Notes under the pieces: generated by a model
Seen by the model: the letters and a program-made list of their open reading frames with translations, nothing else
Told to the model about the DNA's origin: nothing
Databases searched by the model: none
Assembly (NCBI GenBank): GCA_015485355.1
Contig: WFTQ01000038.1
Location: 1 to 36,228, forward strand
Origin: a bacterium
GTDB taxonomy: Bacteria; Calditrichota; Calditrichia; RBG-13-44-9; J042
Reading direction: 5' to 3'
Length of the DNA stretch: 36,228 nt
Program-made: the position numbers and the translations under genes
Shown: in pieces, positions 3,132-36,228 of the stretch
Numbering within the stretch: position 1 is the first letter of the stretch
How the letters are laid out: each line of letters opens with the position of its first letter

Positions 3132-5030
3132 ATGGCAGGATCAACCCCAACTCAGCAGGAAGCCCAGCCGGTGGTGAAAGAGAAAAAGATCATCGAACTG
3201 CCGGAACATATTGTCGAAATTGTCAGCGATTCTGGGGAGGGGGCCCAAAAGGCCGGACAAACCTTCGGGGCCATCTCGGCAAAAATGGGAAACGGCATCT
3301 GGACCGTGGAGATCATTCCCGCGGAAATTCAACCGCCGCCGCGCACCATTACCGGCGCCAGTGGTATCCGTATCCGACTGGGTTCCTTTTATGTTACTAA
3401 CGTTGGCGATGATGCCGATCTGATCGTTGCCTTCAACGAACAGGTTCTGTTAGGCCGCGTGGATACGGGCAATTTGAAACCCGGTGCCATTATTCTTCTG
3501 GAGAACATGTGGCGCACCCATAAGGACCCGGCGATTCGGGAGGCCTATGTTAAGACTTACGATCGTTTGGTCTCCGAAGGCTATAAGGTCATCGAAGTAC
3601 CGATGGAACAAGAGTGTTTAAAATACACGGTCAGTCCCCGTCGTGGTAAAAACATGTTTGTGCTGGGGATGTTGTGTAATCTGTATGAACGCGACTGGGA
3701 ACTGGCGCGTCGGGAAGTCCACAATCTGTGGATAAAGAAAGGTGAAAAGGTGGCCGAGTTGAACCTGAAGTTGTTTCAAGCCGGATATCAGTGGGCCGAA
3801 GAGCATCTGGATTTTAAATTCCATATCCCTTCTGCAGGGATCAGCGAACCTCAGGTGGTCATGAACGGCAATGTGGCGTTGGCACTGGGGATCATTGCCT
3901 CCGGGATGGAGGTCTGTGCCATGTATCCCATCACACCGGCCACCTCGGCTTCGCATTATTTAAGCGAAATTTTCGAGCATGTGGGGGGGATTGTTCATCA
4001 GGCGGAAGACGAGATTGCGGCGGTCGGTTTTGCCGTGGGGGCCTCTTATGCCGGGAAGTGCGCCGTCACCATCACCTCGGGACCGGGAATGTCTCTCAAG
4101 ACCGAAATTATTGGTCTGGCATCCATGATCGAGGTGCCTCTGGTGGTGGTCAATGTCCAGCGGGGTGGTCCCAGTACGGGGTTGCCCACCAAGGTGGAAC
4201 AGGGTGATCTGTTGGCGGCGCTGTTCAGCACCCATGGCGATGCCCCCAAGGTGGTCATAGCCTGTGCCACCATCGAGGATTGTTTCTATTCGGTCATCAC
4301 CGCCCGGAAAATTGCCGAGACCTTCCGCTTGCCGGTCATCGTGCTTTCGGATGCCAATTTGGCTACCGGGCAGCAGCCTTTTCCGCGGCCTAAATTTTCC
4401 CGGGATTGGGTGGCGCCGCCCATCGATCAGCGTCCGGTGCCCGACGGCACCCGGCCGTATGATTGGGACCCCCGGACGGGGCTTTCCCGGCGGATCATTC
4501 CCGGACAACCCAACGGCATGTATTCCTTGACCGGTCTGGCCCACGACCGGGAGGGCAAGGTGGCCTATGAGCCCTGGATCAATCAAGAGGGGGCCCGGTG
4601 CCGGAGCATGAAGCTGGCCGCCTTCCAGAAAACCTTAAAACCCCCAAAGGTTTTCGGCGATCCCGAAGGGGATTTGCTGATTGTGGGATGGGGTAGCACC
4701 AAGGGAGCCATCGAAGAGGCGGTCCTGCGAGTGCGTGAGAAGGGATATAAAGTGTCCGCACTGAATATTAAATTCCTGCAACCCATGGCTTCTGGAATCA
4801 AAGACATCCTCCAGCGCTTCAAGAAAGTGGTGTGCATCGAAATCAATTATTCCGATGATCCCGGCGAAGAATTGATCGACGAAAACAATCGCCGGTATTC
4901 CAATCTGGCCTGGTTGCTGCGGGCTCGCTTCCTGATTGATGTGGATAGCTGGTCCCGGGTGTATGGTCGACCCTATAAACCCGGCGAAATTGAACAGGTT
5001 ATTCTGGAAAAATTGAAAGAAATCAAATAA
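3132..5030 (+). CDS. korA: 2-oxoacid:ferredoxin oxidoreductase, fused gamma-alpha subunit (KorA type)
   Basis: Large subunit (632 aa) of a ferredoxin-dependent 2-oxoacid oxidoreductase, probably for 2-oxoglutarate. It works with KorB to oxidise the 2-oxoacid to its CoA ester, CO2 and reduced ferredoxin. Residues about 28-215 form the gamma domain (SDSGEGAQKAGQ at 32-43). From about 235 comes the alpha domain, with YPITPATSAS at 265-274, a conserved AEDEIAA segment and RGGPSTGLPTKxEQ. A C-terminal domain-II segment follows. This gamma-alpha fusion is the layout of the KorA family; substrate assignment from similarity alone is tentative. A GGAAGG ribosome-binding site precedes the ATG. It is the first gene of the cluster, 15 bases before korB, and no separate ferredoxin-like (delta) subunit is present. 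Confidence 0.93.
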   Translation: MAGSTPTQQEAQPVVKEKKIIELPEHIVEIVSDSGEGAQKAGQTFGAISAKMGNGIWTVEIIPAEIQPPPRTITGASGIRIRLGSFYVTNVGDDADLIVAFNEQVLLGRVDTGNLKPGAIILLENMWRTHKDPAIREAYVKTYDRLVSEGYKVIEVPMEQECLKYTVSPRRGKNMFVLGMLCNLYERDWELARREVHNLWIKKGEKVAELNLKLFQAGYQWAEEHLDFKFHIPSAGISEPQVVMNGNVALALGIIASGMEVCAMYPITPATSASHYLSEIFEHVGGIVHQAEDEIAAVGFAVGASYAGKCAVTITSGPGMSLKTEIIGLASMIEVPLVVVNVQRGGPSTGLPTKVEQGDLLAALFSTHGDAPKVVIACATIEDCFYSVITARKIAETFRLPVIVLSDANLATGQQPFPRPKFSRDWVAPPIDQRPVPDGTRPYDWDPRTGLSRRIIPGQPNGMYSLTGLAHDREGKVAYEPWINQEGARCRSMKLAAFQKTLKPPKVFGDPEGDLLIVGWGSTKGAIEEAVLRVREKGYKVSALNIKFLQPMASGIKDILQRFKKVVCIEINYSDDPGEELIDENNRRYSNLAWLLRARFLIDVDSWSRVYGRPYKPGEIEQVILEKLKEIK

Positions 5031-5045
5031 AGGAAGGTGTCTGGC

Positions 5046-6038
5046 ATGTTTGGATTAGACCTTGAACGTTTATTGGACGTGGAAGACGAGTATCGACGGC
5101 TGGAAGATTATCAGGGAAGCATGCCTCGTTGGTGTTCCGGTTGCGGGGATAATGCCATTTTAACGGCTGTACAACGCTTGCTGCGGGACGAGGGTATTCC
5201 TCCGGAAAAGGCGGTTTTTGTTTCCGGAATCGGTTGTTCCAGCCGTTTTCCGCATTACATGAATGCCTACGGATTCCACGGCGTGCATGGGCGAGCCCTA
5301 CCCATCGCCCAGGGAATCAAAATTCGTCGGCCGGATTTGCATGTGTTTGTGAACATGGGCGATGGAGATTGTTTCAGCATTGGCAGTGCCCATTGGATTC
5401 ATGCCATTCATTACAATATCAATATGCTGGCCATCGTTCACGACAATCGGATCTACGGACTGACGAAAAAACAGGTGTCGCCCACTTCCCCCAAAGGTTT
5501 AAAGACCAATACCACGCCTTATGGATCGTATATCGAAGGACTGAATCCCCTGACGGTCACTCTGGGGGTGACCAACGTCTCCTTTGTGGCCCAGGCCGTG
5601 GAATGGATTCCCGACCTGTTATACGCAGTGATTCGGCAGGCATTTCATCACCGGGGATTCTCCTTTGTACGGGTGTTGCAACGTTGCCCCACCTATCTGC
5701 CGGATATTTTCGATCCCTTTATTAACGATCCGCAAAATATTCTTATCCTGACCCACGAATCGGGGCTGCAGCTGGATGAGAGTCTGGCCAAAATTTACCG
5801 GAATCGGGTGGAACACGATCCATCCGACATCCATCGCGCCCGGGAAATCGCTTCCGATGAAAGCAAGGCCGTCGTGGGGATTTTGTACCGCAACGAACGT
5901 GTGGATGTGTATGACGAGATTCGTCGTCCTAAGCGGGTGACCACGCTGGAGATGCGTAAAGCGGTCCTGGAAAGAGAATTGGATAAATTTGCCGTTAATC
6001 CTGTGGGTGGAGACAATCACAATGAAAAGGAAGCATAA
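5046..6038 (+). CDS. korB: 2-oxoacid:ferredoxin oxidoreductase, beta subunit (KorB type)
   Basis: TPP- and [4Fe-4S]-binding subunit (330 aa) partnering KorA. The TPP/Mg motif GDGD is at residues 105-108, and the later DNRIYGLTKKQVSPTSP segment completes the cofactor site. The four expected cluster cysteines are visible: C30 and C33 (CSGC), C64 (GIGCSS) and C214 (QRCPTY). The enzyme core therefore looks intact, in contrast to the two PFOR-like proteins downstream. I chose ATG 5046 because AGGAAGG (5031-5037) sits eight bases before it; a GTG at 5037 would lie inside that site. The 3' end overlaps the next gene by 17 bases, indicating translational coupling. Confidence 0.95.
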   Translation: MFGLDLERLLDVEDEYRRLEDYQGSMPRWCSGCGDNAILTAVQRLLRDEGIPPEKAVFVSGIGCSSRFPHYMNAYGFHGVHGRALPIAQGIKIRRPDLHVFVNMGDGDCFSIGSAHWIHAIHYNINMLAIVHDNRIYGLTKKQVSPTSPKGLKTNTTPYGSYIEGLNPLTVTLGVTNVSFVAQAVEWIPDLLYAVIRQAFHHRGFSFVRVLQRCPTYLPDIFDPFINDPQNILILTHESGLQLDESLAKIYRNRVEHDPSDIHRAREIASDESKAVVGILYRNERVDVYDEIRRPKRVTTLEMRKAVLERELDKFAVNPVGGDNHNEKEA

Positions 6039-9000
6039 ATCGACCGCCGGGGCCTCGCAAGCCACTCCCTCCGGGGATGCCCTCCAACCGGTAGACAAGG
6101 TGTGGGATGTTTTCACTGCCGCGCTGGATCTTTCTGTGCAAACGGCGGAGATGATCGGAACGCGTCGGGATGAACCGACGGCATACGTCGTGTGGCTTTG
6201 GAACCGTTGGCGGGAGGAGAAACCGCCGCCTTATCCCTCGATGCCGGTCCGTTTTTTTACCACCCGGGGGATTTTTTCCACCGTGGAAGAGTTAGCGGGA
6301 CGCGCCCGGGCCGGCAAACGGGTGGCTTTTATCGGCACAGGCGATGTACTGCCCCGCTCCCGGGGAAACGATCGCCAGCCGTTTGTCATTCACTGGGTTT
6401 GGGATAACGATGTGCCCCTGGCACATCCCCCTTTCTTTCAGTGGGTTTGCCGCGATGTTCAACAATGGGCCGATTTGACCATTGTTTCCCGCAAACTGGC
6501 GGAGCTGGCGTTGATGCCCGGAGTGCTCACAATTTCTCAGCAAAAAGAGGCGATGCGGCTGGAGCCGATTCTTTCCCCGCCGGCACCTTTACTGCGGGAG
6601 TTTCTCGGGCAACCGGGGGACGACATTGTGTGCCCGGTGGCCTGGCAACGGAATATCTTTGGCCCCACCCGCCGGAGGATTCCGGAGGGTTTCGATTTTG
6701 CTTCCCTTGCTGCGCCCGTTCCCGATGAGGAGGAATTTTTTGTCCTGTTGCAGCAAGTGTTGGCGGACTTCCAGCGTTTGACCGAACGTCGGTATGCACC
6801 GGTGGATGCCGTCGGGGTCCAAGCGGCCGAGGTGGTGATCCTTACCGCCGGGGGCTTTTATGAACCTCTGCAACGGCGTTTAGGGGAATTGAGCGAAGCC
6901 GCCGGCACGAAGGTGGGAGCGATTCATTTAAACCTCATTCATCCTTTTCCCGGTCATTTGCTGGCCCATCATCTGAAGGGCAAAAAACTGGTTGTTTTGT
7001 TGATCCCCTCTCGGCAGGATCGAGCGGAATGTTTGTTGCGTTCGCTCCGGCTCAGTTTCGAAAAGGCCTTTGAGCGGGGAACGATCCAGGGGAAATCCGT
7101 GCCCCGGGAACTCTCTCGATGGCCGGCTTATCACCAGATTCACGATCGGCCTCGGGTGTTGGTGGTTCGGCAGAAAGGAAACCGGCTGAACGTGGATGCG
7201 CTGGCCCAGGCGTTGCCCGGGTGGTTACGCCGGCCGTTTGCTGCAGAAGGGTTGCAATTGCCGGAATTTTCCGGCGACCCTGCGGAAAAGACCGCTTCGG
7301 GGCGTGGGCGCAGAAAAAACGATCGTTTTACGGTACTCTACCGTTCCGAAACGGCCCTGTGGCAGGGGCGCATTTTTGCCACGGCGATCCGGAGGATCGT
7401 ACAGGCCGATTGCCGGGTTGTGGGGCCACCCCTTGCTCATCGGGCTCATATTCATCTGGGTCGGCCGGGGAGTATTCCGATGGAAGAGACCGGCCCGATA
7501 GATGCCATTATTTCTCCGGAATGGCTGTTCGGTCAAATAACCGAAGACCTTGGCCGGTTGCGGAAAGGGGGGGTTTTGCTCTTGCAGGGTGATGCCGGGG
7601 AACCGGAGCGCTTGTGGTCTCATCTTCCCCGGTCCGCGCGCCGTCAATTGCTGGATGGCCACTATCGGGTATATACAATCGATGCCATCGCCGGGGCTCG
7701 GGAAAATCCGTCCGGTGCCGAGGAGGCCTGGATGGCCTGGGTGTATTTAGGAGCATTGCTGAAGATCGTCTTTCAACATTACGAAGAGTATAAATGGCTT
7801 GCAATTTCTGAAAAACAATTGAAGGGTGTGATAAAGTCGCTTGAAGCGAACGCCTCTCGGGCACTGCTGTACGGCTGGCAACAGGTTCGTCGGGTCGATC
7901 CAGAAGAGTGGGAGCCGTTTAGCGAACCCATTGCTTTAACGGACGAAGGTCCTCAGATTCGGGAACCTGCCCGGGATGGGGAACCGAGCGAAAAAAAGTT
8001 GGAGGCCCGACGGTTTCAAGCGTATTTAACCTTTCATTTTACAGGGAGACGGCCTCGGGAAGCGTCTCAACCCTTCCGCAACAGCAGCCTTATCCCGGTA
8101 CTGTTGCATCCGTTTCGCAATTTGCTGAACATTCGTTTTCATTTTCCGGTGTGTCTGGTCCAGGATCCAGACCGGTCGGTTCGACCTTTGCAGGACATTT
8201 TCGACGATTTGATCGAACAGAACCGTCCGGATGGGGAGGCCGGGGAGCAATTCCGTCGGGATGTGTTGCGATTGGAAAAGGCCATCAAACAACAGATCGC
8301 CACAGGCACCCGGGCCACGTTGACCCGGTTATGGGAAATGGCCGCGGAATCCATTTTGCAGGAAGCACCGATTTCCCCGGAGCGCAAAGAAACTTTAATC
8401 CAGAACTGGCAAACCGCCCGCCGGGCATTAAGGGTAGATGGACTGGTGCTGGATTGTCGACCCGATGCGGCCCTGCTGCTCTATCGCCACATCTGGAATG
8501 TCCATCGGCGGCTGCAGGTGAAATCTTTTGCCGACGAGCTGGATGGTTACATGGTGCGTTTATCGGACATATTGAAAAGCGATGAGCAGAAGAGCCCGGA
8601 GGCCGTGAAGCCGGAAACATTGAAAGCCTCTGTGGGTGCTGCCTTTCAGGAGGATTTGGATTTTGAACAACTGTCCCACATTCTGGAGGCAACGGCCGCC
8701 GAAGGCGAGTCTTTATCACCCCGGCGTCGCTGGCGTATCCGGGCTACCCTGGCAACGCTAAAAAAATATCGTCCGCTGTTTTACCCGGAGCCCCTGCCGG
8801 CGGAATCCCAAGAAGACATCTGGAACGAAAACGGTAGTTTCTTCCCCATTGTAGCCCCCGATACAGTGGATAACCTGGCCCGGGCTTTAGGCGCATATGA
8901 GGCCCAGATGCACAACGTGGTCGAATTTTTCCGGGCCGTGCATATCGCTCGCTTGGAGGTGGAGAATCGCTATCGGGAAGATCGGCACGATGCCTTCTTC

Positions 9001-10401
9001 CGAGACTTTACCTTTGAGTATTTGACCCGGGAAGAACGGCAATTGATACCTCCTTTGCTCATTTACCTGCGGGCGGAGTTGCTGAATGAACTCAACCGGG
9101 AAATGGTGCTGGAATGGCTCTCCACCGACTATCCGGTTAAAATCATGCTGGAGGTTCAGGACCTTTGGGATGGGGCGACCTCGGTACAGGAAACGCCCTG
9201 CTTATCGAACTGGGCCTTGCGGATAGCTCGCATGGCAATAGGTTTGAATCGTGCCTATGTCTTTCAGGCCAGCATTGCCAATGTAGAGGCATTGCAAAAG
9301 GCTTTGTGGGAGGGATTGGCTTATTCCGGTCCCGCGTTATGGAGTGTGTGGATCGGTCGGCCGCAGTGGTATCCGGCGTTATCGCCTTATCTGGTTGCGG
9401 CCGCCGCTCAGGAAGCCCGGGGTTTTCCGGTGTTGACTTTCAACCCCTCCGCGGGCGATACCTGGGCGGATTGTTTTTCCCTGGAAGGCAATCCCGATCC
9501 CGAAAGCGACTGGCCTGAAACCGAATTTTCCTATAAGGGGCGGGATGGGGAAACGCTCACCCAAAAGCTTCCCTTTACCTTTGTCGATTGGCTCAGCACC
9601 CACATGTTGTTCCGGCATCATTTTCTGGTATTGCCGCCAGGCATTCAGGATTCCCGATTTATCCCTCTGGCCGAATACTGGCGGTTGTCGGAAGAGGAGC
9701 GGCTGCAGAGGGTTCCCTATATTTTAATGGTTGATGAGGGCCGTTGTCTGCAGCGGGTGGTCATCACCCGTCCGATGGTGGAAGCCGCACGGATGGTTCT
9801 GGCCGATTGGCACATGTTGCAGGAGATGGGTGGGATTCGCAATTCCCACGCCCTGCGGCTTTTGGAGGTGGAGCGGTCCCGTTTACGACGGGAGATGGAA
9901 GCGGAGGTACAGGCAATCGAGCAGCGTTTTCGGTCTGAGATGGAAAAGACGCTGGGCGAGGTTGCCCGAGATATCGTTTCCAACATTGCGGCGGGATTGT
10001 TGGGTCAGGCCGCCGGCCCGGTGGCCCCGTTAGCGGGACTACCGCAGGAGGTGGAAGCTCCCCCAGAGATGCCGTCGCCCTCTTCCGAGGAGACTGCGGA
10101 AGCGGAGGCTTCCGCGGAGGCGGCGGTGGAAGAAGAGGAAGAAGCCCTGCGATTTGACGATCCTTTTATCGAAACGCCCCGCTGCACCAGTTGTGGAGAG
10201 TGCATAACGATCAACAATCGGCTGTTCGCTTATAATGACAATAAACAGGCGTATATCGCAGACCCGGATGCGGGTTCCTACCGAGAGCTGGTCCTGGCAG
10301 CGGAAAAGTGTCCGGTCCATATCATTCATCCCGGTAAACCGCGTAATCCCGATGAGCCGGGTTTGGACGAACTTGTCAAACGGGCGGAACCGTATTTGTA
10401 G
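6022..10401 (+). CDS. giant degenerate PFOR-like protein A with C-terminal single-cluster ferredoxin domain
   Basis: A 1459-aa protein that follows the domain order of pyruvate:ferredoxin oxidoreductase but has lost its active site. Residues about 15-210 resemble PFOR domain I, about 265-375 domain II, and about 433-560 the gamma-like domain III. About 620-940 is unrecognised helical sequence where PFOR would carry its internal ferredoxin domain; no CxxCxxCxxxC motif remains there. About 950-1150 corresponds to the TPP domain but lacks GDG and TGGQ. A coiled coil (about 1253-1323) and a Glu/Ala/Pro-rich linker (about 1330-1380) lead to a ferredoxin domain with C1388, C1391, C1394 and C1430, enough for one [4Fe-4S] cluster. 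I chose ATG 6022 because GGTGGAG lies nine bases upstream; an earlier start at 5989 has no such site. It is a paralog of the protein at 11271. Non-catalytic electron-carrying or scaffold role is inferred. Confidence 0.85.
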   Translation: MKRKHKSTAGASQATPSGDALQPVDKVWDVFTAALDLSVQTAEMIGTRRDEPTAYVVWLWNRWREEKPPPYPSMPVRFFTTRGIFSTVEELAGRARAGKRVAFIGTGDVLPRSRGNDRQPFVIHWVWDNDVPLAHPPFFQWVCRDVQQWADLTIVSRKLAELALMPGVLTISQQKEAMRLEPILSPPAPLLREFLGQPGDDIVCPVAWQRNIFGPTRRRIPEGFDFASLAAPVPDEEEFFVLLQQVLADFQRLTERRYAPVDAVGVQAAEVVILTAGGFYEPLQRRLGELSEAAGTKVGAIHLNLIHPFPGHLLAHHLKGKKLVVLLIPSRQDRAECLLRSLRLSFEKAFERGTIQGKSVPRELSRWPAYHQIHDRPRVLVVRQKGNRLNVDALAQALPGWLRRPFAAEGLQLPEFSGDPAEKTASGRGRRKNDRFTVLYRSETALWQGRIFATAIRRIVQADCRVVGPPLAHRAHIHLGRPGSIPMEETGPIDAIISPEWLFGQITEDLGRLRKGGVLLLQGDAGEPERLWSHLPRSARRQLLDGHYRVYTIDAIAGARENPSGAEEAWMAWVYLGALLKIVFQHYEEYKWLAISEKQLKGVIKSLEANASRALLYGWQQVRRVDPEEWEPFSEPIALTDEGPQIREPARDGEPSEKKLEARRFQAYLTFHFTGRRPREASQPFRNSSLIPVLLHPFRNLLNIRFHFPVCLVQDPDRSVRPLQDIFDDLIEQNRPDGEAGEQFRRDVLRLEKAIKQQIATGTRATLTRLWEMAAESILQEAPISPERKETLIQNWQTARRALRVDGLVLDCRPDAALLLYRHIWNVHRRLQVKSFADELDGYMVRLSDILKSDEQKSPEAVKPETLKASVGAAFQEDLDFEQLSHILEATAAEGESLSPRRRWRIRATLATLKKYRPLFYPEPLPAESQEDIWNENGSFFPIVAPDTVDNLARALGAYEAQMHNVVEFFRAVHIARLEVENRYREDRHDAFFRDFTFEYLTREERQLIPPLLIYLRAELLNELNREMVLEWLSTDYPVKIMLEVQDLWDGATSVQETPCLSNWALRIARMAIGLNRAYVFQASIANVEALQKALWEGLAYSGPALWSVWIGRPQWYPALSPYLVAAAAQEARGFPVLTFNPSAGDTWADCFSLEGNPDPESDWPETEFSYKGRDGETLTQKLPFTFVDWLSTHMLFRHHFLVLPPGIQDSRFIPLAEYWRLSEEERLQRVPYILMVDEGRCLQRVVITRPMVEAARMVLADWHMLQEMGGIRNSHALRLLEVERSRLRREMEAEVQAIEQRFRSEMEKTLGEVARDIVSNIAAGLLGQAAGPVAPLAGLPQEVEAPPEMPSPSSEETAEAEASAEAAVEEEEEALRFDDPFIETPRCTSCGECITINNRLFAYNDNKQAYIADPDAGSYRELVLAAEKCPVHIIHPGKPRNPDEPGLDELVKRAEPYL

Positions 10402-10414
10402 GAGTGGGCGGGGA

Positions 10415-11281
10415 ATGGATATCGTCACAGCCATTGGATTCATAGCCGTATTGAGCGTTTTTTTAGCCGTTGCGCTGGCTATTGCCAACAGCAAGTTGAA
10501 AGTGCAGGAAGACCCCCGCATTGGCCGCGTGGAGGAAATGTTGCCCGGCGCCAATTGCGGCGCCTGTGGTTTGCCGGGTTGTCGGGCGTTTGCCGAAAAC
10601 GTGGTGGCGGGAAAAATTTTACCCGGCCAATGCCCCGTAGGGGGGCCGGAAACCGCCCGCATGGTGGCGGAATACCTGGGGGTGGATGCCGGACAAACCG
10701 TCAAGAAAGTGGCCCGATTATTGTGCGCGGGAAACCGAGAAGTGGCTCCCCAGATTGCCGAATATGACGGTTATCCTTCCTGCAGAGCCGCTGCCGCGGT
10801 TACCGGAGGATTTAAAGGGTGCGTTTACGGCTGCCTGGGGTTGGGCGATTGTGTGGCATCCTGTACCTTCGATGCCATGTTTATGGCTCCCAATGGATTA
10901 CCGATGATCGACGTGGAAAAATGCACCGGATGCGGCGATTGTGTTCGTGCCTGTCCCAAAGGTATCATCGAACTGTATCCCATCTCCCAGCATTTGATAG
11001 TGCAATGCAAGTCCCTTTTGGCCGGCGATGATGCCTTGGCGGTATGCGAGGTGGCCTGTACGGGTTGTGGCATTTGCGCCGCCGATGCCCCGGAAGGGTT
11101 AATCACCATGCAACACCATCTCCCCATTGTCCATCAGGATCGATTGAGTCTGGAAACAGAGCTGGCGACTCTGCGCTGCCCCACAGGCGCCATTACCTGG
11201 GTGGAGGGCCAGCAATTTCCCGAATTATTTTACCCGCTCAAAACCGCTAAACAGAAAGCGAAGGCGAGCCGTGTGGTTTAA
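10415..11281 (+). CDS. rnfB: Rnf electron transport complex subunit B
   Basis: Membrane-anchored iron-sulfur subunit (288 aa) thought to receive electrons from ferredoxin and pass them into the Rnf complex. Residues 3-24 form one hydrophobic anchor. The four-Cys motif C48, C51, C56, C73 is the N-terminal RnfB cluster. A ferredoxin module has C136, C140, C146, C150 and C170, C173, C176, C180. The last module keeps C215, C218, C221 and C255, but the fourth Cys is A225 and the whole second CxxCxxC is gone; these are exactly the ligands of one cluster. This is the long RnfB type seen in clostridia-like Rnf. ATG 10415 lies 13 bases after the preceding gene. Its 3' end overlaps the next start by 11 bases. 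Its position first and apart from the other rnf genes is unusual. Confidence 0.95.
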   Translation: MDIVTAIGFIAVLSVFLAVALAIANSKLKVQEDPRIGRVEEMLPGANCGACGLPGCRAFAENVVAGKILPGQCPVGGPETARMVAEYLGVDAGQTVKKVARLLCAGNREVAPQIAEYDGYPSCRAAAAVTGGFKGCVYGCLGLGDCVASCTFDAMFMAPNGLPMIDVEKCTGCGDCVRACPKGIIELYPISQHLIVQCKSLLAGDDALAVCEVACTGCGICAADAPEGLITMQHHLPIVHQDRLSLETELATLRCPTGAITWVEGQQFPELFYPLKTAKQKAKASRVV

Positions 11282-14200
11282 GAAAAAAAGAGCTCTGAAT
11301 GACCGTGTTCCTTTTCCGGGTACCTGGGATGCCCTGGATGGTCATGGGGCCGTCTGGCAGGTGGAACGGATCGCCAGTCAGGCCATCCAGGTCCACAACA
11401 TTCCCAATACGGCGCAGCTGGTTCGGCAACTTCAGGAGGTTCCGGATTGGGATCGGGTACTGGTGTTTAAATCCACCGCCGATAGCCGTATCCTATCGGG
11501 CCTTACCGTGGGTACGGCCCTGGTCGGCTTGCGCTCGGTGGCCTTTACCAGCGGCGTTGGGCTTGCGGAAATGCAATCCTCGCTGGATGCAGCAGTCGGT
11601 AAACGGCTCTCTTTTGTTCTTCACTTAACCAGCCGGGCTCTGGGTCGGCATGCCGAAACGCTGTGGCCGGGCCACGATGACTATCATGCCCTCTCCCGCA
11701 GTGGCTTGTTCCAGCTCTTTGCCAAGAATGTGCAGGAGGCGGCCGATTTCACGCTCATCGCCCATCGCATAGCCGAATTGGCGTTGAATCCCGGATTGGT
11801 GGCTCAGGACAGCTTTCTGACCAGCCATTCGATACAGCCCGTGCGTTTGCCGGAACCCGAGGCGGTCCGGTGCTTTCTGGGGGATCCCGGAGACTGGATC
11901 GATTGTCCTACACCGGCGCAAAAGTTGCTCTTCGGAGAAAAGCGACGGCGCATTCCGGAATGGTTCACTATCGACCGGCCTTTAGGAATCGGCATTGTTC
12001 AGGACCGCGAAAGTTTCTTTCGGGCCGTTGCGGGCCAGCAGCCTTATTTCTGGCAACATGTGGCCCCCATTGCCGATCAGGTGTTCGAGGAATTCGCCCG
12101 GTTGACCGGAAGAAGATACGCACGCATCCAGACCTATCGGCTGGAAGACGCCGATTATGTGCTCGTGGCTCAGGGTTCTCTGGTCGAAGAGCTGGAGAGG
12201 CTGGCCGATGTTCTTCGCCGCCGGAAAAAATGGAAAGTCGGTGTCCTGAATGTCAGCATGTTTCGGCCTTTTCCCGGGGATCGGATTTCCCATCTGTTAA
12301 AGGGGAAGAAGGGCGTGACGGTATTCGAAAGAGTGGAGCCGGCGCTTGCCCAGGACCCTCCGTTACTCGGTGAAATTCGGGCCGCCCTGGACCGGGCCGT
12401 GGAAAATGGCCGACAGAAAAACGCAACCCTTCCTTACCCCGATTACGCCGTGTATCAACGTCCCGCGGATCGCCCCCTGTTTTATTCCGCTGTATATGGT
12501 GTGGGGTGCGGCAATCCCGCCTTCGAGCAATTATCAGCGGCGGTGGAGAACATGGTGGACCGAGACCCGCCGCAAAGGCAATATTACTTGGGGGTTCGTT
12601 TCCGTCAGCCGAATTTACGTTTTCCGATTCTGGAACGGGTTCAGCAAATGCTGGATCGGGACTATCCGGATAGAGAAAAATGGGGCCTTTTTGCTACCGC
12701 ATCGGTTTCCGAGACGGTGCGGGATGAACCGCGCCAATCTTTTCTGTGGTTAACGGTTACGGGAACGGGTGGGACCCGCGTGGGAGGGATACTGGCTCGG
12801 GCCTTATTTAAGGGGGCCGATTGGCCGATTCGAACGCTGCCGGAGTATCACCTCCATCAAAGCATTCCTTGTACCAAATATTTCCTGGAACGCCCCCTGG
12901 AAGCGTCCGGAAGTGCACCGGTTGATGGTGGACTTCAGGGGCTGGTGGTGCAGGATGTTTCCCTTGTAACCGCGGTGGATGCTCCGGAGCGCCTGGTCCA
13001 GAATGGTTTTCTGATCGTCCACTGGGAGGGTGCCCCGGAGGCGTTGTGGTTTCAGTTGCCGGAGCGGGTACGCAAGAGCATTCAACAACGCCGGTTGCGG
13101 CTGTTTGCAATCAATGCCCGAGGCGTTGCCCGGGATGTGGCGTCCGATGACCATTTGGAAGGCCCGTTGATGAATCATGCCCTGGCAGGGGCGTTTCTGC
13201 AAGTTGCGCCGCAAATTTCTTCGGAGAGTCGCCCGGCCGTACTCGAGGCCTACCGGAAAGAGCTGGAGGCGGCATACGGCAGGGGTCCTGTTCTGGTTCA
13301 CGAAAGTCAACAGGCGGTGCAACAGGGTATGGCGAAGGTGGAGGCGGTCGAATGGACCTCCCTGCCGCCCGTGGAGGATGTGGTGCTGGGCGAACCCCCG
13401 GCTCCCTGGACGGTTCGGGAAACGCGCCGGTTCGACGCCTCGCTTTTTGACCTGACGCACTTCTGGGAAACGGTCGGATTTTTTTACAAAACCCACCGAG
13501 AGGATCAGACGTTGATCACGCCTCAGCTGGCCATTGGTACCCTGCCGGCCCGGAGCAGCGCCTTTCGGGATTTCACGCCTTCTCGGAAAACCCTTCCGCA
13601 TTGGATATCCGAGCGATGCACCGGATGCGGTTGGTGCTGGACGCTGTGTCCGGAGGGGGCGCTGCCGGCCACGGTTCAAAACCCTGCCGCTATGATAGAA
13701 ACGGCGTTGCAGCAGACGGCGGCGCAGGGAAAACCATTGCTGCAACTTCCGCGCTTGAAGGATAACCTGGCAAAACTGGCCTATAAACTTTTTCTCAAAG
13801 ATGAATTGCACCGGTACCTGACGCTGGGGGAGTTGCTGGAAGATGCCTTCCGGCGGTTGTTGGAGCTGATGCAACCTCCCGATCAGCAAAAGAGCGAGCT
13901 GGAACAGGAGTTCCAGCAATTTCGGGAGGGTATACGTCATTTGCCCATCGTCCGCACCCAACCCTTCTTTGATCAGCCGCATGCCGCCCAAAAAGGAAGT
14001 GGTCTTTTACTCACCCTTGGGGTGAATCCGGACGCTTGCAAATCCTGTGGTTTGTGCACCGCGGTGTGTCCCGAACAAGCTCTGGAAATGTTGGAACAAA
14101 CCGATCGGGATGTCGCGCGCTACCGGCAAAATTGGCGATTTTTAATGGAGCTCCCCGATGTGCCGCTGGCTACAATAGCCGGTTTTCTTCGGGAGGAGGC

Positions 14201-16007
14201 GCCGGAAACTTATGGGTATCTGCTGTTGAACCGCCGGGTGTATCATGCGGTGATCGGGGGGGACAATGCGCCTCCGGCCAGCGGTTCAAAAGTTGCCCTG
14301 CGTCTGGTAGCCGCAGCGGTGGAATCTGTGATGCAGGCTCGGGTTGAGCCGCTGTTACGGCGCATTCAGACCATGATGGAGCAGCTGGAAGCGCGGGTGC
14401 AGGGCCAGGTCAGCCGGTCTCTGAAAATCAACGATTTTGAACAATTTGCGCACAAATTGAGTGCCCTGGAAAAGCGCAAAGTGGATCTGGAAACGTTGGC
14501 GGCGCTGATTCAGGCGGAAAACCAAGCCCCTCCGGTGGTGGACAAAGAGCCGCTGGAGCGACTGGCCACGACGCTCAATACCCTGAAAGAATTGAAAGCG
14601 CTCTATCAACAGGGGGCCGCCGGAGACGGTCGGGCCCGGTTGGCCATGGCGGTGGATGCGGATAGCGTGGCCTTCTGGAGCGGTCTGTATCCTTACAATC
14701 CTTTTCCTTTCCCCTGGGTGCATCATCGGTGTGGGGAGGCCCCCGCACTGGCCGAAGGCCTGGTGGAAGGAGTGACCCGTAAGATGTTGGCGACATTTCG
14801 AACCTTGCGCAAGGCCCGCTGGATTCTGGAAGACACCTATGACCCCCGAACGCACGACAAAGAGTTGGCCCGCTTGGATTGGGAACACCTGACCGAAGAA
14901 GAAAAGCAGTTGGTACCCCCTGTTGTGGTCGTGGGAAGCGAGGGGACCCTGGGCGAGGCGGGTCTGGCAGGGTTGTCCCGCATCTTGCAGCGCTCCCTTC
15001 CTATCAAGATAGTGGTGTTGGATACCCAGGGATATGCCGCCACCGGAGGACAGCCCGGCGCTGGTGGTTTTGCCAGTCAGGGGAAAGACCAGGGGTTCCG
15101 CCGCCAGGAATTGGCCCTGATGGCCCTGGCGTTTCGTCAGGCCTTTGTGCTGCAGGGCAGTATCGGTTACCCGGGCCTGCTCTTGAAGCAATTGCGACGC
15201 TCTCTGGCATTCGACGGTCCGGCACTCGCCGTCATTTACACACCGGAACCCGGTGCCCACGGCCTGTTGCCGGAAAAGGTGCTGGAGCAGGCCCGCCGCG
15301 CCGTCCTTACCCGCACGTTCCCGATCTGGACCTACGATCCCTCCATCCCCGGGGAATTCCAGGCCCGGATCGACCTATCCGCCAATCCAGAGCCGGAAAG
15401 GGATTGGGTGCAGGTCACCGAAATGACCCGCAGTGGAGAAAAACACGGTGCGGAAGTCACCCATTACCTTACCTTTGCCCATTGGGCCGTTCATGAAGTT
15501 CGCTTCCGACCGCAGGTCAAATACCTGCCGCAAAAGGAATGGCATCGGGACCTGGTGCCTCTGGTGGAATACCTTCAGAAACCTTTGCAGGAGCGGGAAG
15601 GGCTGGAACCGTATATTGAAGTGGTGGATGAAAAGGGACGGTTGTTGCGGGTGGTGGTGAGCCCGCAAATGGTTCGCGATACGGAAGATCGATTGCAACA
15701 CTGGCGTTTATTGCAGGAATTGGCCGGTTTGCGTTCCAGCCGGGTAGACCGGATTCGACAGCAGCTGCGGGAAGAACTGGAACAGGAATTTCAGCAACAA
15801 CGGGAGACGCTGGAAAGGGAATACCGCAGGAGAATGGCCGAGCTGGACCAAAAGCACGAGCAGATTTACCGCTCCCGATTGACCCAACGGTTGCTGGAAT
15901 TGAGTGGGTACGGCCGGGATGCTCAGAAGTTAAAGCAAACCCTGCAGGCGTTTGCCGAAAGGGTCCGGAGGAATGGGCGTGGTGACGAAAAAGACTCGGA
16001 GGCTTAA
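11271..16007 (+). CDS. giant degenerate PFOR-like protein B with two ferredoxin motifs and C-terminal coiled coil
   Basis: A 1578-aa protein with full PFOR domain order but a damaged catalytic centre. Domain I is about 1-210, domain II about 290-390 and the gamma-like domain about 402-640. A ferredoxin domain has C783, C786, C789, C793 and C923, C926, C929, C933, separated by an insertion of about 130 residues. The TPP domain is about 1140-1340. There, the family CSGCGE motif reads HHRCGE (C1154 kept, first Cys now H1151), GDG reads SEG (1223-1225) and LDTEVYSNTGGQ reads LDTQGYAATGGQ (1250-1261). In domain I the catalytic Glu of EMQSEAG aligns with Ser, while the SRAL arginine (R122) is kept. 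Residues about 1480-1570 form a charged coiled coil. The GTG start overlaps rnfB; its ribosome-binding site is weak (AAGGCGAG). Electron relay or scaffold between KorAB and Rnf is my inference. Confidence 0.88.
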   Translation: MWFKKKRALNDRVPFPGTWDALDGHGAVWQVERIASQAIQVHNIPNTAQLVRQLQEVPDWDRVLVFKSTADSRILSGLTVGTALVGLRSVAFTSGVGLAEMQSSLDAAVGKRLSFVLHLTSRALGRHAETLWPGHDDYHALSRSGLFQLFAKNVQEAADFTLIAHRIAELALNPGLVAQDSFLTSHSIQPVRLPEPEAVRCFLGDPGDWIDCPTPAQKLLFGEKRRRIPEWFTIDRPLGIGIVQDRESFFRAVAGQQPYFWQHVAPIADQVFEEFARLTGRRYARIQTYRLEDADYVLVAQGSLVEELERLADVLRRRKKWKVGVLNVSMFRPFPGDRISHLLKGKKGVTVFERVEPALAQDPPLLGEIRAALDRAVENGRQKNATLPYPDYAVYQRPADRPLFYSAVYGVGCGNPAFEQLSAAVENMVDRDPPQRQYYLGVRFRQPNLRFPILERVQQMLDRDYPDREKWGLFATASVSETVRDEPRQSFLWLTVTGTGGTRVGGILARALFKGADWPIRTLPEYHLHQSIPCTKYFLERPLEASGSAPVDGGLQGLVVQDVSLVTAVDAPERLVQNGFLIVHWEGAPEALWFQLPERVRKSIQQRRLRLFAINARGVARDVASDDHLEGPLMNHALAGAFLQVAPQISSESRPAVLEAYRKELEAAYGRGPVLVHESQQAVQQGMAKVEAVEWTSLPPVEDVVLGEPPAPWTVRETRRFDASLFDLTHFWETVGFFYKTHREDQTLITPQLAIGTLPARSSAFRDFTPSRKTLPHWISERCTGCGWCWTLCPEGALPATVQNPAAMIETALQQTAAQGKPLLQLPRLKDNLAKLAYKLFLKDELHRYLTLGELLEDAFRRLLELMQPPDQQKSELEQEFQQFREGIRHLPIVRTQPFFDQPHAAQKGSGLLLTLGVNPDACKSCGLCTAVCPEQALEMLEQTDRDVARYRQNWRFLMELPDVPLATIAGFLREEAPETYGYLLLNRRVYHAVIGGDNAPPASGSKVALRLVAAAVESVMQARVEPLLRRIQTMMEQLEARVQGQVSRSLKINDFEQFAHKLSALEKRKVDLETLAALIQAENQAPPVVDKEPLERLATTLNTLKELKALYQQGAAGDGRARLAMAVDADSVAFWSGLYPYNPFPFPWVHHRCGEAPALAEGLVEGVTRKMLATFRTLRKARWILEDTYDPRTHDKELARLDWEHLTEEEKQLVPPVVVVGSEGTLGEAGLAGLSRILQRSLPIKIVVLDTQGYAATGGQPGAGGFASQGKDQGFRRQELALMALAFRQAFVLQGSIGYPGLLLKQLRRSLAFDGPALAVIYTPEPGAHGLLPEKVLEQARRAVLTRTFPIWTYDPSIPGEFQARIDLSANPEPERDWVQVTEMTRSGEKHGAEVTHYLTFAHWAVHEVRFRPQVKYLPQKEWHRDLVPLVEYLQKPLQEREGLEPYIEVVDEKGRLLRVVVSPQMVRDTEDRLQHWRLLQELAGLRSSRVDRIRQQLREELEQEFQQQRETLEREYRRRMAELDQKHEQIYRSRLTQRLLELSGYGRDAQKLKQTLQAFAERVRRNGRGDEKDSEA

Positions 16008-16116
16008 AACGTGGACGCCCGGGTCGGGAGGCATCAGTGGACCGCCGCTGAGGATGATCGGGCACGCGTTCCGTCGGGTGAATAGGGAAACAAAACCCCG
16101 TTAATGCGAGTGAAGG

Positions 16117-17472
16117 ATGGAACGGTTGCTGTTTAGAGAAAAACGAACTTTTAAGCACGGGATTCATCCCCGCGATTATAAGCATTTTACCAGGGACCTA
16201 CCCATCGAGCGGATGCCGTTTGTGAGGGAATACGTGCTGCCTCTCAGCCAGCACGCCGGGGCGCCTTCCCGGCCGGTGGTAAAGCGGGGGGAGCGTGTTT
16301 TTCGGGGGCAATTGATTGCCGAACCAGCCGCCTTTGTTTCCGCCGCGCTTCATGCTCCGGTAACCGGTGTGGTTGCGGCCGTCGAACCCCGGGAACATCC
16401 CGCCGGAAAGATGGTGGATGCCATTGTCATCCAGCGGGACCCGCATTCGCCGCAGACCCTGTTCAATGAACATCCCATTGATTGGAGTGCTTTGACGCCC
16501 TCGGAGCTGCTGGAAATCATCCGCCTGGGAGGATTTGTGGGACTGGGCGGTGCGGCTTTCCCTACACATGTGAAATATGCCATTCCCGAAGGCAAATATG
16601 CCCGATTCTTTTTTGTAAATGCCGCCGAGTGCGAGCCCTTTTTGACCACCGATTATCGCATCATGCTGGAACGCTACCCGCATATCTTTTCGGGTATTCG
16701 GGTGATTCTGAAAATCTTGGGTTCCGAAAAGGCCTATATCGGCGTAGAAGATAACAAACAGGAAGCCATCGCCCTGCTTCGGGAAACCATGCCTTCCGAT
16801 TTGCCCTGCGAAGTCGTTCCGCTGAAAACCAAATATCCCCAGGGTGCCGAAAAGATGCTCATCGAAGCGGTGCTGCATCGGGAAGTTCCCAGCGGACGCC
16901 TGCCCATCGACGTGGAAGTGGTGGTCAATAACGTCGGTACCGTGGCCGCCATTGGAGAACTGTTTGCGTACAATCAACCGTTGATTGAACGGGTTGTTAC
17001 CATCACCGGACCGGGAATTCACCGTCCCGCTAACTTGCTGGTACCCATCGGAACGCGGTTGAGTGACGTCATTGCCCATTGCGGCGGAATGAAAGACAAC
17101 GTGCGTCAGGTGCTCTTTGGGGGTCCCATGATGGGGATGCCTCAGCGTTCCCTGGATGTGCCTATCATGAAGGGGACTTCCGGAGTGCTGTTCCTGACCG
17201 ACGGTGAAGTGGTTCCCCGCCGGGAATATCCCTGCATTCATTGCATGAAGTGTGTAGACGCGTGTCCCATGTACCTGAATCCCAGTCTGCTGGGAATGCT
17301 GGCCCGGGTCCGACGGTACGAGGACATGCTGGAGCATTATATCATGGATTGTATTGAATGCGGGTCGTGTTCCTACGTTTGTCCCTCGAACATCCCGCTG
17401 GTTCAACGGTTTCGGGTGGCCAAGGCTTTGTTACGCGAGAAAATGGCCAGAGAGAGGGCGGTGCAAGGATGA
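16117..17472 (+). CDS. rnfC: Rnf electron transport complex subunit C
   Basis: Peripheral subunit (451 aa) carrying the NAD(H)/FMN site of the Rnf ion pump. The FMN-binding type motif GLGGAAFP is at residues 142-149, an SLBB-type region lies in the middle, and two [4Fe-4S] motifs are near the end: C373, C376, C379, C383 and C412, C415, C418, C422. Length fits the short bacterial RnfC without long C-terminal repeats. There is a 109-base gap after the PFOR-like gene, the largest inside the cluster. The ATG 16117 directly follows GAGTGAAGG, so the ribosome-binding site is very close and the exact start is slightly uncertain. Its stop overlaps the rnfD start as ATGA. Confidence 0.96.
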   Translation: MERLLFREKRTFKHGIHPRDYKHFTRDLPIERMPFVREYVLPLSQHAGAPSRPVVKRGERVFRGQLIAEPAAFVSAALHAPVTGVVAAVEPREHPAGKMVDAIVIQRDPHSPQTLFNEHPIDWSALTPSELLEIIRLGGFVGLGGAAFPTHVKYAIPEGKYARFFFVNAAECEPFLTTDYRIMLERYPHIFSGIRVILKILGSEKAYIGVEDNKQEAIALLRETMPSDLPCEVVPLKTKYPQGAEKMLIEAVLHREVPSGRLPIDVEVVVNNVGTVAAIGELFAYNQPLIERVVTITGPGIHRPANLLVPIGTRLSDVIAHCGGMKDNVRQVLFGGPMMGMPQRSLDVPIMKGTSGVLFLTDGEVVPRREYPCIHCMKCVDACPMYLNPSLLGMLARVRRYEDMLEHYIMDCIECGSCSYVCPSNIPLVQRFRVAKALLREKMARERAVQG

Positions 17473-18494
17473 AAGCTCGAGAACCCAGGCTGTTGCTGAC
17501 CACCTCTCCGTTTATAAAGTCCCCCCAGGATACCCGTTTTATCATGTGGCAGGTGAATTACGCCCTGGTGCCGGTGATCCTGGCCGGTATTTATTATTTT
17601 GGCCTCAATGCGGTTCTAATCATCTTGGTGTCGTTAGCGGGTGCGCTTTTGCCCGAGTGGCTCTGGAGCCGTCGGCAATCCCATCCGGTCAACACGGTGC
17701 GGGATGGTTCGGCCGTGATCACCGGTCTGCTGTTTGCATTGACTCTGCCACCCGGCATTCCTTTATGGATGGCTTTCTTAGGGGGAACGGTTTCCGTTGT
17801 TTTGGGGAAGATCATCTTTGGGGGATTGGGATATAATATTTTCAACCCCGCCCTGGTAGGGCGGGCCTTTCTGCAAGCGGCGTTTCCCGTATCCATGACC
17901 ACGTGGATCCCCTACGCCACGCCGGAAAACGTCTTCCACATACGGGGGGATTTATTGACGTTTCCTTTCATGAAACCCCGGATGGATGCCCTTTCCGCGG
18001 CCACACCTCTGGCCCGCATGAAGTTCGAATCTCAGCTCACCCGTTTAACGGATCTGCTGCTGGGAAGCACGGCCGGTTCTCTGGGAGAGACGGCGGCCTT
18101 CATCATTATACTGGCGGGGGTGTACCTGGGACTGCGGGGAGTGATTAATTGGCGCATTCCGGTGGGAATTGTTGCCACCGTCTTTCTGCTGGCGGCTCTG
18201 TTACACTGGGTGGATGGGACCCGGTATCCGGCACCCTGGTTCCACGTATTTGCGGGCGGCTTGATGCTGGGTGCCGTGTTCATGGCCACGGACCCGGTCA
18301 CCTCCCCCATAACCCAGAAAGGGGTGTGGATTTTTAGCATCGGCGTGGGACTGCTGGTGGTAATCATCAGAATCTGGGGCGGTCTACCCGAGGGGGTCAT
18401 GTATTCCATCCTGTTGATGAACGCTGTGACGCCGCTAATCAATAAAATGGTGCGGCCGCGCATTTACGGAATGCGTGAAAAGAGTGGCCGTTGA
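17469..18494 (+). CDS. rnfD: Rnf electron transport complex subunit D
   Basis: Integral membrane subunit (341 aa) of the Rnf pump with a covalently bound FMN. Several hydrophobic segments are seen (for example about 28-62, 80-112, 195-235 and 245-315). The flavin-attachment region reads DALSAATPL, with the acceptor Thr at residue 179. The ATG at 17469 overlaps the rnfC stop (ATGA); a longer frame opening at 17358 lies within rnfC and is not conserved-looking. Homologous to NqrB, but in the rnf context. Confidence 0.96.
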   Translation: MKAREPRLLLTTSPFIKSPQDTRFIMWQVNYALVPVILAGIYYFGLNAVLIILVSLAGALLPEWLWSRRQSHPVNTVRDGSAVITGLLFALTLPPGIPLWMAFLGGTVSVVLGKIIFGGLGYNIFNPALVGRAFLQAAFPVSMTTWIPYATPENVFHIRGDLLTFPFMKPRMDALSAATPLARMKFESQLTRLTDLLLGSTAGSLGETAAFIIILAGVYLGLRGVINWRIPVGIVATVFLLAALLHWVDGTRYPAPWFHVFAGGLMLGAVFMATDPVTSPITQKGVWIFSIGVGLLVVIIRIWGGLPEGVMYSILLMNAVTPLINKMVRPRIYGMREKSGR

Positions 18495-18619
18495 CGCTCG
18501 ATCTTTTACCCGATTTTGGAAAAAGGCCCTTGGGGGGGAATGACAAACTCTGGGTGCAGGGCCGGAATCGATCGGTCGATCGTCTACCATTGAAAACTCG
18601 ACAAAAACATTATGGCCAT

Positions 18620-19333
18620 ATGATGCATATGCACGGAACGGGACATCATCATCCTTCGGCTGGAGAAGGCGGCGATGAGGTCAGCAGTTGGCGCATGATT
18701 CTCACCATGGGAACCATTGGATTGCTCGCGGGCTTATTGATTGTGGTCACCTATCAGTTGACCTTGCCCATCATCGAGCAAAACAAAGCGCAGTATCTTC
18801 AGCGGGCGATATTTGACGTCCTTCCCGGAGCCAGCCGGAAGCGCGCTTTTATTGTGGAAAAGGACGGCCGGTTACGGCCGGAACAGGGAAAAGAAAAGCA
18901 TGGGTACAAGGTGTACGCCGGATATGATCGGGAGGGCCGACTGGTGGGGATTGCCATCGAAGCGAAGGGCCAGGGATTCCAGGACGTGATTCAGCTGATC
19001 TATGGCTACGATCCGGAACGGGAGGTCATTGTGGGCATGAAGGTTCTGGAGAGTAAAGAGACCCCGGGTTTGGGCTCCAAGATCGAAACCGATCCGGAGT
19101 TCATCGCCAATTTCAAAGCGCTGGAGGTCAAGCTAAAGCCGGACATGAGCGATCTGGAACATCCGCTGGAAATGGTCAAGAAAGGGCAAAAAACAGCGGC
19201 CTGGCAGATTGAGGCCATTACCGGGGCCACCATCTCCTCCCGGGCCATCACCCACATTCTGTTAAAAAGCAGTCGGGAAATTCTCCCCCTGATCCGTAAA
19301 AACCTGGATATGTTAAAACAGGAAGCCCCATGA
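18620..19333 (+). CDS. rnfG: Rnf electron transport complex subunit G
   Basis: Subunit (237 aa from this start) with one N-terminal membrane segment at about residues 24-46 and a soluble FMN domain outside the membrane. The flavinylation motif TGATISS carries the acceptor Thr at residue 204. The start is uncertain. ATG 18620 lacks a clear ribosome-binding site but places the membrane segment as usual and gives an odd Met/His-rich start (MMHMHGTGHHHP). A TTG at 18491 would overlap the rnfD stop, like the other junctions here, but the 43 extra codons show weak third-position GC bias and do not resemble RnfG. The gene ends in a 4-base overlap with rnfE. No ApbE flavin transferase gene is in the window, though this protein and RnfD should need one. 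Confidence 0.92.
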   Translation: MMHMHGTGHHHPSAGEGGDEVSSWRMILTMGTIGLLAGLLIVVTYQLTLPIIEQNKAQYLQRAIFDVLPGASRKRAFIVEKDGRLRPEQGKEKHGYKVYAGYDREGRLVGIAIEAKGQGFQDVIQLIYGYDPEREVIVGMKVLESKETPGLGSKIETDPEFIANFKALEVKLKPDMSDLEHPLEMVKKGQKTAAWQIEAITGATISSRAITHILLKSSREILPLIRKNLDMLKQEAP

Positions 19334-19965
19334 TGAAAGCGGAACAGAACACCAGCATGGACATCCTGCTCAAAGGGATATGGAAAGAAAATCCCGTGTT
19401 TGTTCAGGTGCTGGGCATGTGCCCTGTGCTGGCGGTAACGAACTCGGTCATTAACTCCATCGTAATGGGTTTTGCCACAACCTTCGTTTTGGTAATGTCC
19501 AGCTTTTTTGTGTCCTTGTTTCGGAAGCTCATCCCCCGGCAGGTTCGCATCGCCAGTTACATCATGATTATCGCCACCTTTGTGACGGTCGCCGAATATA
19601 TTATCCAGGCGATTAGCCTGGAAGTCCACAAGAGTTTGGGCGCATTCATTTCCCTGATCGTGGTGAACTGTATCATTTTGGGGCGCGCCGAAGCTTTTGC
19701 CTCCAAATATCCGGTGAAAGAAGCGGTAATGGATGCCCTGGGTATGGGAGCGGGGTTTACATTGGCGGTTCTGAGTTTGGGGGTGGTGCGGGAATTGTTG
19801 GGCAACGGCACCCTGGCCGGAGTTTCCATTATGGGGCCGTCTTTTGAACCCTGGTCGATCATGATTTTGCCCGGGGGAGCGTTTTTTGTTTTAGGCGCCT
19901 GGTTGTTGTTTTTTAATTGGTTAAGGGAACGAGCCAAACGGCAACAGGAAAGGGTGATGGTATGA
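19330..19965 (+). CDS. rnfE: Rnf electron transport complex subunit E
   Basis: Integral membrane subunit (211 aa), homologous to NqrD, with about six hydrophobic segments. It forms the membrane core with RnfA. Family marks include NPVFVQVLGMCPVLAVT near the N-terminus and NCIILGRAEAFAS in the middle; the conserved cysteines (in GMCP and VNC) bind the intramembrane iron-sulfur centre shared with RnfA in this family. The start overlaps the rnfG stop and the end overlaps rnfA (ATGA), so translation is coupled. Confidence 0.97.
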   Translation: MMKAEQNTSMDILLKGIWKENPVFVQVLGMCPVLAVTNSVINSIVMGFATTFVLVMSSFFVSLFRKLIPRQVRIASYIMIIATFVTVAEYIIQAISLEVHKSLGAFISLIVVNCIILGRAEAFASKYPVKEAVMDALGMGAGFTLAVLSLGVVRELLGNGTLAGVSIMGPSFEPWSIMILPGGAFFVLGAWLLFFNWLRERAKRQQERVMV

Positions 19966-26411: not shown

Positions 26412-29094
<2,683 letters not shown>

Positions 29095-31719: not shown

Positions 31720-31904
31720 GGCACCCTCCATAAGTTTTAATAGCTTTGTTATCAACCCTAAAAGGAATCCCTGAGCGATGGAGTGGTAATTCAGTGGCCG
31801 GTCCGACACAGATCAGGGGGTGCTGCGCCCAAAGTGTTCAAAAAAATTAAGAAGTAGACCCCCTCGCGCACAAAACAATGAGAAAAAAGCTTGCATTGGA
31901 TGCC

Positions 31905-36015: not shown

Positions 36016-36228
36016 ATGACCTCCAGAATATTTTATAATCTTCATTATTTTCGCTTTGAAATATAAGAACTTTATCCCAAATAAGGGGCTTTTTCGTTGC
36101 TGGATCTAACCCGGGGTGGGTTTGCCGGTGCTCTTTTTCGGAGGGTTTTTCGATGGATTGCTTCAGGGGGTAAGAGGGCCTGTTTTATGAACGCTTTTCC
36201 AGACAAAAGGGTCTGTTCAGGGTGAAAG

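Follow-up and report, generated by a model that had tools for sequence, protein, structure and literature searches.

Protein A, a protein of 1459 residues encoded in a stretch of 36,228 nucleotides from a bacterium of the Calditrichota (contig WFTQ01000038.1; the whole stretch is called the window), is, judged by its sequence, a degenerate and catalytically dead paralogue of protein B, a second protein of the same operon that resembles pyruvate:ferredoxin oxidoreductase (PFOR). It ends in a tethered single-cluster ferredoxin domain and is probably the electron-output arm of KorAB, the two-subunit 2-oxoacid oxidoreductase encoded directly upstream. Together with the pseudo-PFOR B, A probably wires 2-oxoacid oxidation to the Rnf complex (RnfABCDEG), whose genes make up the rest of the operon.

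The open reading frame (ORF) of A extends from an ATG at 6022 to the stop at 10401 and is preceded by a Shine-Dalgarno-like GGTGGAG; the TTG at 5989 given in the ORF list is merely an in-frame start upstream of this ATG. Because a second genome of the window's genus encodes a full-length orthologue (ORF of 1465 residues, 58% identity), A is not an assembly artefact. The original prediction had taken A for a homologue of B and of PFOR and had named a lack of detectable homology in profile searches as the outcome that would speak against this; the searches do detect both relationships. BLASTP of A against B yields two colinear blocks (E 9e-36 and 2e-35, 27-28% identity) that include the motifs FLGxPGDxIxCP...RRRIPE and PYIxxVDE...RVV, and the PFOR model TIGR02176 matches A with an E-value of 1.9e-10, at 39 bits against a cut-off of 911 that is not reached. 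Profile-profile comparison by hhalign with B2, the catalytically intact relative described below, aligns residues 1-640 of A colinearly with residues 15-642 (E 8.8e-39) and residues 640-1459 with residues 735-1645 (probability 100, E 1.5e-75), the latter again colinearly, over the tail but not over the two-cluster segment, which A lacks. Moreover, Foldseek searches with AlphaFold models return PFOR as the best match for both halves of A (E 1.2e-24 and 1.9e-4). Agreement of this extent lies far beyond chance. On the strength of colinear homology and fold, we assign A to the PFOR superfamily. The parts of A, in window coordinates, are:

6304..7011, plus strand: residues 95-330, resembling PFOR domains I-II, without equivalents of Thr31, Glu64 and Arg114 (PFOR profiles, motif alignment, fold)
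7309..7851, plus strand: residues 430-610, resembling PFOR domain III (gamma/POR) (weak PF01558 match, E 0.0012; BLASTP to B; fold)
7939..9846, plus strand: residues 640-1275, colinear with PFOR domains V-VI (hhalign, Foldseek, motif alignment)
9847..9996, plus strand: residues 1276-1325, long helix or coiled coil (helix at 637-688 of the AlphaFold model)
9997..10158, plus strand: residues 1326-1379, acidic tether of 54 residues rich in Pro, Ala and Glu (predicted local distance difference test, pLDDT; charge)
10159..10398, plus strand: residues 1380-1459, single-cluster ferredoxin domain Fer4_13 (Pfam, profile against the PDB)

Thr31, Glu64 and Arg114 are numbered as in the Desulfovibrio africanus PFOR. 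Compared with PFOR (TIGR02176; D. africanus 1b0p/7plm, Moorella 6cin), A shares the folds of domains I-III and VI in colinear order but is devoid of the thiamine pyrophosphate (TPP)/Mg site, the proximal cluster and the two-cluster domain, and additionally carries the tethered C-terminal ferredoxin. Specifically, the aligned stretches of A contain no GDG...SNTGG motif for TPP/Mg, motif alignment finds the proximal cluster cysteines of domain VI neither in A nor in B, and in residues 640-1275 the two-cluster segment is deleted and the TPP and cluster-A motifs are gone. The internal two-cluster ferredoxin domain is thus not found in A, whose sole CxxCxxC motif lies at residue 1388, as had been predicted from the sequence together with the loss of the TPP motif. 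While the catalytic motifs of A are absent, the adjacent KorAB retains its own.

The predicted one-cluster ferredoxin on a flexible acidic tether is likewise supported by the domain search and the structural model. Fer4_13 is recognised in A with 28.9 bits (cut-off 24.5; E 1.9e-6) and is present in all 13 A proteins, and four cysteines (C1388, C1391, C1394 and C1430, the last 36 residues past C1394), which would hold one cluster, are invariant across the aligned tails of A and B2. The tether carries a net charge of -13, and in an AlphaFold model based on 13 relatives the region around residues 1325-1390 has pLDDT values mostly below 50 and is modelled as disordered, whereas the core is confident (overall pLDDT 77, predicted template modelling score 0.68). 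Between A and its counterpart in the sister species, conservation is highest in the tail (89% identity); the coiled coil is 78% identical, the core 65% and the linker 42%. In a profile search against the PDB, the top match of the tail is the single-[4Fe-4S] ferredoxin I (1dax/1dfd/1fxr, D. africanus; E 1.1e-10), which along with 1dwl is its closest solved relative but is a free protein. D. africanus ferredoxin I is a known partner of PFOR. The small two-cluster ferredoxins PorD/KorD/OorD (TIGR02179) would share the proposed role of A as the electron exit of a 2-oxoacid oxidoreductase, but the tail of A is a one-cluster Fer4_13 domain tethered to a pseudo-PFOR, and TIGR02179 does not match A at E-values up to 1.

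The origin of this architecture is indicated by B2, a protein of about 1640 residues that keeps the Thr31 and Glu64 loops, Arg114, GGDG and SNTGGQ, both middle clusters and the proximal cluster cysteines, and that ends in the same one-cluster ferredoxin as A. Since intact B2 carries both the middle clusters and the tail, the ferredoxin did not move, and the originally predicted relocation of this domain from the middle of the protein to its C-terminus is rejected. The colinearity of A and B2, with the tail included and the two-cluster segment missing, instead argues that the middle clusters and catalysis disappeared from A; B lost catalysis and the tail. B keeps the two middle clusters, but its TPP site and proximal cluster are gone: no proximal cluster cysteine remains, and neither do the loops of Thr31 and Glu64 or the asparagine of SNTGG. 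B is least degenerate in the window's genus, where remnants (GSEG or GDDG, and ATGGQ) and an arginine at the position of Arg114 are found. In two B homologues (L147:11425-15909 and L153:11022-15473) even the two middle CxxCxxC clusters are lost and the position before rnfC is kept. A tree of domain VI, rooted on the PFOR of the genome itself and read without the wrong ORF B2_L124, supports a B clade (99/97) and, apart from one wrong ORF, an A clade (97/90), which join at 100/100 as sisters and are both nested inside B2, although our trees have long branches. A tree of the N-terminal half, which is poorly resolved and again long-branched, unites the three long A N-termini (100/98) inside the A+B group but outside the B of the window's genus, and so does not support the idea that A acquired its long N-terminal half by a recent duplication of the adjacent B.

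The genes that surround A, all on the plus strand, form a korA-korB-A-rnfB-B-rnfC-rnfD-rnfG-rnfE-rnfA cluster (3132-20543):

3132..5030, plus strand: KorA, gamma-alpha fused 2-oxoacid:acceptor oxidoreductase subunit (TIGR03710, 517 bits, above cut-off)
5037..6038, plus strand: KorB, TPP/[4Fe-4S] subunit (6n2n_B, E 7e-51)
6022..10401, plus strand: protein A, pseudo-PFOR of 1459 residues with C-terminal ferredoxin (profiles, BLASTP, hhalign)
10418..11281, plus strand: rnfB (TIGR01944, above cut-off)
11271..16007, plus strand: protein B, pseudo-PFOR of 1578 residues with two middle clusters kept and no ferredoxin tail (profiles, motifs)
16117..17472, plus strand: rnfC (conserved neighbour of B and B2)
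17358..18494, plus strand: rnfD (ORF bounds; start probably further downstream)
18491..19333, plus strand: rnfG (ORF bounds; start probably around 18653)
19330..19965, plus strand: rnfE
19917..20543, plus strand: rnfA (ORF bounds; start probably around 19959)

The junctions are tight: korA and korB are separated by 6 nucleotides, korB and A overlap by 17, A and rnfB are 16 apart, and rnfB and B overlap by 11, followed by a gap of 109 nucleotides between B and rnfC. KorAB is of the two-subunit type of the Magnetococcus 2-oxoglutarate:ferredoxin oxidoreductase (6n2n), whose chain 6n2n_A is the closest solved relative of KorA (E 3e-81); KorB has kept its catalytic and cluster residues, its CSGCG, GCSS, GDGD and RCPT motifs aligning with 6n2n_B. 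A gene for a ferredoxin subunit is not found beside korAB in the window. The genome encodes an ordinary PFOR on another contig, a second KorB paralogue (49% identical to that of the window) and, according to an RnfC-based search, one Rnf. To our knowledge, the Magnetococcus enzyme has nothing that corresponds to A, the apparent third subunit here. The two-subunit enzyme of Sulfolobus has no such protein either (PMC5020499), and the solved archaeal two-subunit 2-oxoacid:ferredoxin oxidoreductases are without an internal ferredoxin domain (PMC5020499), which A would supply.

Gene linkage and co-occurrence favour KorAB as the partner of A. In 12 Calditrichota genomes korB is followed immediately by the A gene, and the contig of a 13th (G033) ends inside A. 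The same adjacency is found in most of the other loci examined, among them genomes of Bacteroidota, Acidobacteriota, Myxococcota and Planctomycetota; exceptions are L149, with two ORFs in between, and L147, where no korB was seen. A KorB of the window's type (62-94% identity) is present in 12 of 40 Calditrichota genomes, all 12 of which have A, and in none of the 27 genomes without A (Fisher p 2e-9, uncorrected for relatedness); genomes without it have only a paralogue of 41-51% identity, or none. Outside the Calditrichota co-occurrence is biased because most loci there were chosen through B2. B or B2 is also present in 12 of the 13 A genomes; in the remaining one, G029, a type-2 rnfC lies at the edge of a contig. 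Because no part of A is better conserved than its tail and KorAB is intact without a ferredoxin subunit gene beside it, A is probably the output arm of KorAB, an assignment that we regard as well supported. Of the electron path in the original prediction, between KorB and B or RnfB, the donor is favoured by linkage and co-occurrence; the acceptor may be B or RnfB, some B proteins having no clusters at all and one genome having KorA-KorB-A with no Rnf found. Near korA, one family of relatives encodes an RnfC-like 4Fe-4S protein of 441-452 residues (CDQCSLCTEMC; L040:632-1957, L044:1377-2735, L051:3092-4429, L033:9998-11356), followed by an ORF of 182 residues; in G021, korA falls into two ORFs (L051:5483-7384), probably through a frameshift or assembly error.

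Relatives of the operon are of two types: type 1, korA-korB-A-rnfB-B-rnfCDGEA, as in the window, and type 2, rnfB-B2-rnfCDGEA, without Kor genes. A scan of GTDB contigs with B2 yielded at least 573 relatives, of which 80 loci were kept for analysis. They contain 75 B2 ORFs of more than 1500 residues, with the tail in 74 and SNTGGQ in all 75; rnfC follows directly downstream in 63, 7 run into the edge of a contig or locus, and 5 defied our crude ORF caller. The records come from Bacteroidota, Gammaproteobacteria, Myxococcota, Planctomycetota, Acidobacteriota, Hydrogenedentota and Verrucomicrobia, cultured strains among them. An intact ferredoxin-tailed PFOR of about 1640 residues directly upstream of rnfC is thus widespread (L056-L135), including in cultured Bacteroidota and Planctomycetes, and we found no open PMC paper that describes it. 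Two B2 ORFs (L107:3-5873 and L115) are longer, at about 1890-1960 residues, possibly through upstream read-through. A 75-residue "stand-alone ferredoxin" beside rnfC in G019:C2 was dropped as a candidate, since it adjoins rnfC in a genome whose B2 is cut by a contig end, and it is most likely the missing end of that B2.

A is rarer than B2: it was detected in 4 of 297 Bacteroidota genomes (the phylum of the metagenome-assembled genome G047) at E 1e-20, 2 of them previously identified carriers and 2 additional, G208 and G237, and a single-sequence scan of GTDB contigs with A gave no matches; our ORF calling was simple, and several genomes are incomplete. G208 has a full type 1 operon with a divergent B of 1372 residues; G237 encodes KorA-KorB-A with the full tail, and no RnfC homologue was found in it at E 1e-20. 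The long form of A, of the 1459-residue type, was seen only in the window's family (the window, G026, and G027, where it is split over two contigs). Elsewhere A has 711-911 residues with the tail, or about 500-525 without it. The tail-less A-like proteins lie directly behind korB (L154:7834-9411, L155:7721-9214, L156:10094-11671) and belong to two Myxococcota and one planctomycete, whose genomes have a tailed B2.

The reading that we favour, with a confidence somewhat above even, is that A is an accessory subunit of KorAB, and that A and B hold KorAB beside Rnf so that the tethered ferredoxin feeds Rnf. A would descend from an Rnf-linked, ferredoxin-tailed PFOR and would have lost catalysis, with KorAB performing the 2-oxoacid chemistry. 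Electrons would leave KorB through its single cluster and enter the one-cluster ferredoxin that terminates the tether, while A and B would most likely imitate the halves of a PFOR dimer and keep KorAB next to Rnf. From the tethered ferredoxin the electrons would pass via B or RnfB into Rnf and on to NAD+, accompanied by ion pumping and without freely diffusing ferredoxin. The reverse direction, in which NADH and the ion gradient drive reductive carboxylation, would be equally possible. We infer docking of A to B and Rnf, and hence an assembled Kor-Rnf complex, because the genes are interleaved, A, rnfB and B standing in the same order in Calditrichota and Bacteroidota, and because A and B are sisters. 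In Acetobacterium woodii, RnfB is the subunit that binds ferredoxin; it moves a flexible cluster domain, and its lysine/arginine-rich C-terminus has been proposed to act as a "fishing hook" (PMC11889175). The C-terminus of the window's RnfB is likewise basic (KTAKQKAKASRVV) and the tether of A is acidic, a pairing that is at most suggestive.

Several loci weigh against such a complex. G237, and the loci in which KorAB-A stands alone (L038, L146, L154, L155), argue that retention of A does not depend on a Kor-Rnf complex, and G237 also weakens the idea that A is itself an Rnf subunit. The clusterless B proteins of L147 and L153 argue that B is not an obligatory wire; a role of B as a platform rather than a wire fits these sequences. 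G237 and the loci with KorAB-A alone, together with L054 and L163, where KorA-KorB-A is likewise apart from Rnf, would be expected if A were only a ferredoxin arm through which KorAB feeds a soluble ferredoxin or flavodoxin pool, Rnf being co-operonic for regulation and KorAB-A making no contact with B or Rnf. We regard this as a serious but rather doubtful alternative, which accounts neither for the retention of a catalytically dead sister of A between rnfB and rnfC nor for the identical order of the interleaved A, rnfB and B in two phyla.

That B, or the A/B pair, still oxidises another 2-oxoacid in a rebuilt active site, with A as a modulator, is improbable: the remnants and the arginine in the B of the window's genus would suit it, but this B is without the Thr31/Glu64 loops, the proximal cluster cysteines and the SNTGG asparagine, and other B proteins are far more eroded, two of them to the loss of all middle clusters. 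Even less credit can be given to A as a purely structural scaffold or docking subunit with a vestigial tail, for which the tail-less proteins beside korB speak; the conservation of the tail and its invariant cysteines speak against it, and the genomes with tail-less proteins have a tailed B2. Extending the favoured bridging of KorAB to Rnf, we tentatively propose, at somewhat less than even confidence, that duplication of a tailed PFOR gave rise to the pseudoenzyme pair A/B, creating a membrane-bound, ion-pumping 2-oxoacid:NAD+ oxidoreductase that works via a tethered ferredoxin, and that its catalytically intact ancestor type, a PFOR encoded within Rnf operons, occurs widely among the phyla of bacteria.

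In the usual picture, ferredoxin-linked 2-oxoacid oxidation and Rnf are the work of distinct enzymes connected by a soluble ferredoxin pool, and we are aware of no characterised Rnf that includes a PFOR-like subunit. The text of a 2025 review on Rnf mentions neither PFOR nor 2-oxoglutarate nor a supercomplex (PMC12174285), and no description of a PFOR/Kor-Rnf operon system was found in open PMC papers. In Endoriftia, a "PFOR-like" gene falls in expression along with korAB (PMC11636981); it may be a relative. By offering a tethered ferredoxin and two enzyme-derived scaffolds instead of a soluble pool, the operon provides a testable case of electron channelling, which could spare low-potential electrons from side reactions or from oxygen. 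It would also illustrate clearly how an active enzyme can become a pair of adaptors, many genomes still having the intact ancestor type.

Elsewhere in the window, a tmRNA gene (1969-2355, tag ADNNYALAA) is followed by a strong terminator-like hairpin (2362-2389). A Fur/PerR-like regulator (25980-26411) lies near a KatG-like catalase-peroxidase (26896-29094), both named by reading the translations, and this pair suggests exposure to oxygen despite the oxygen-sensitive type of KorAB. Finally, two large proteins on the minus strand (29158-31809 and 32593-36045) appear by eye to carry a C-terminal sorting-type domain (YQLPRRARVQLVVYDVLGRPVQ..., YYLPRQSRVTMTIYDVQGRRIA...).

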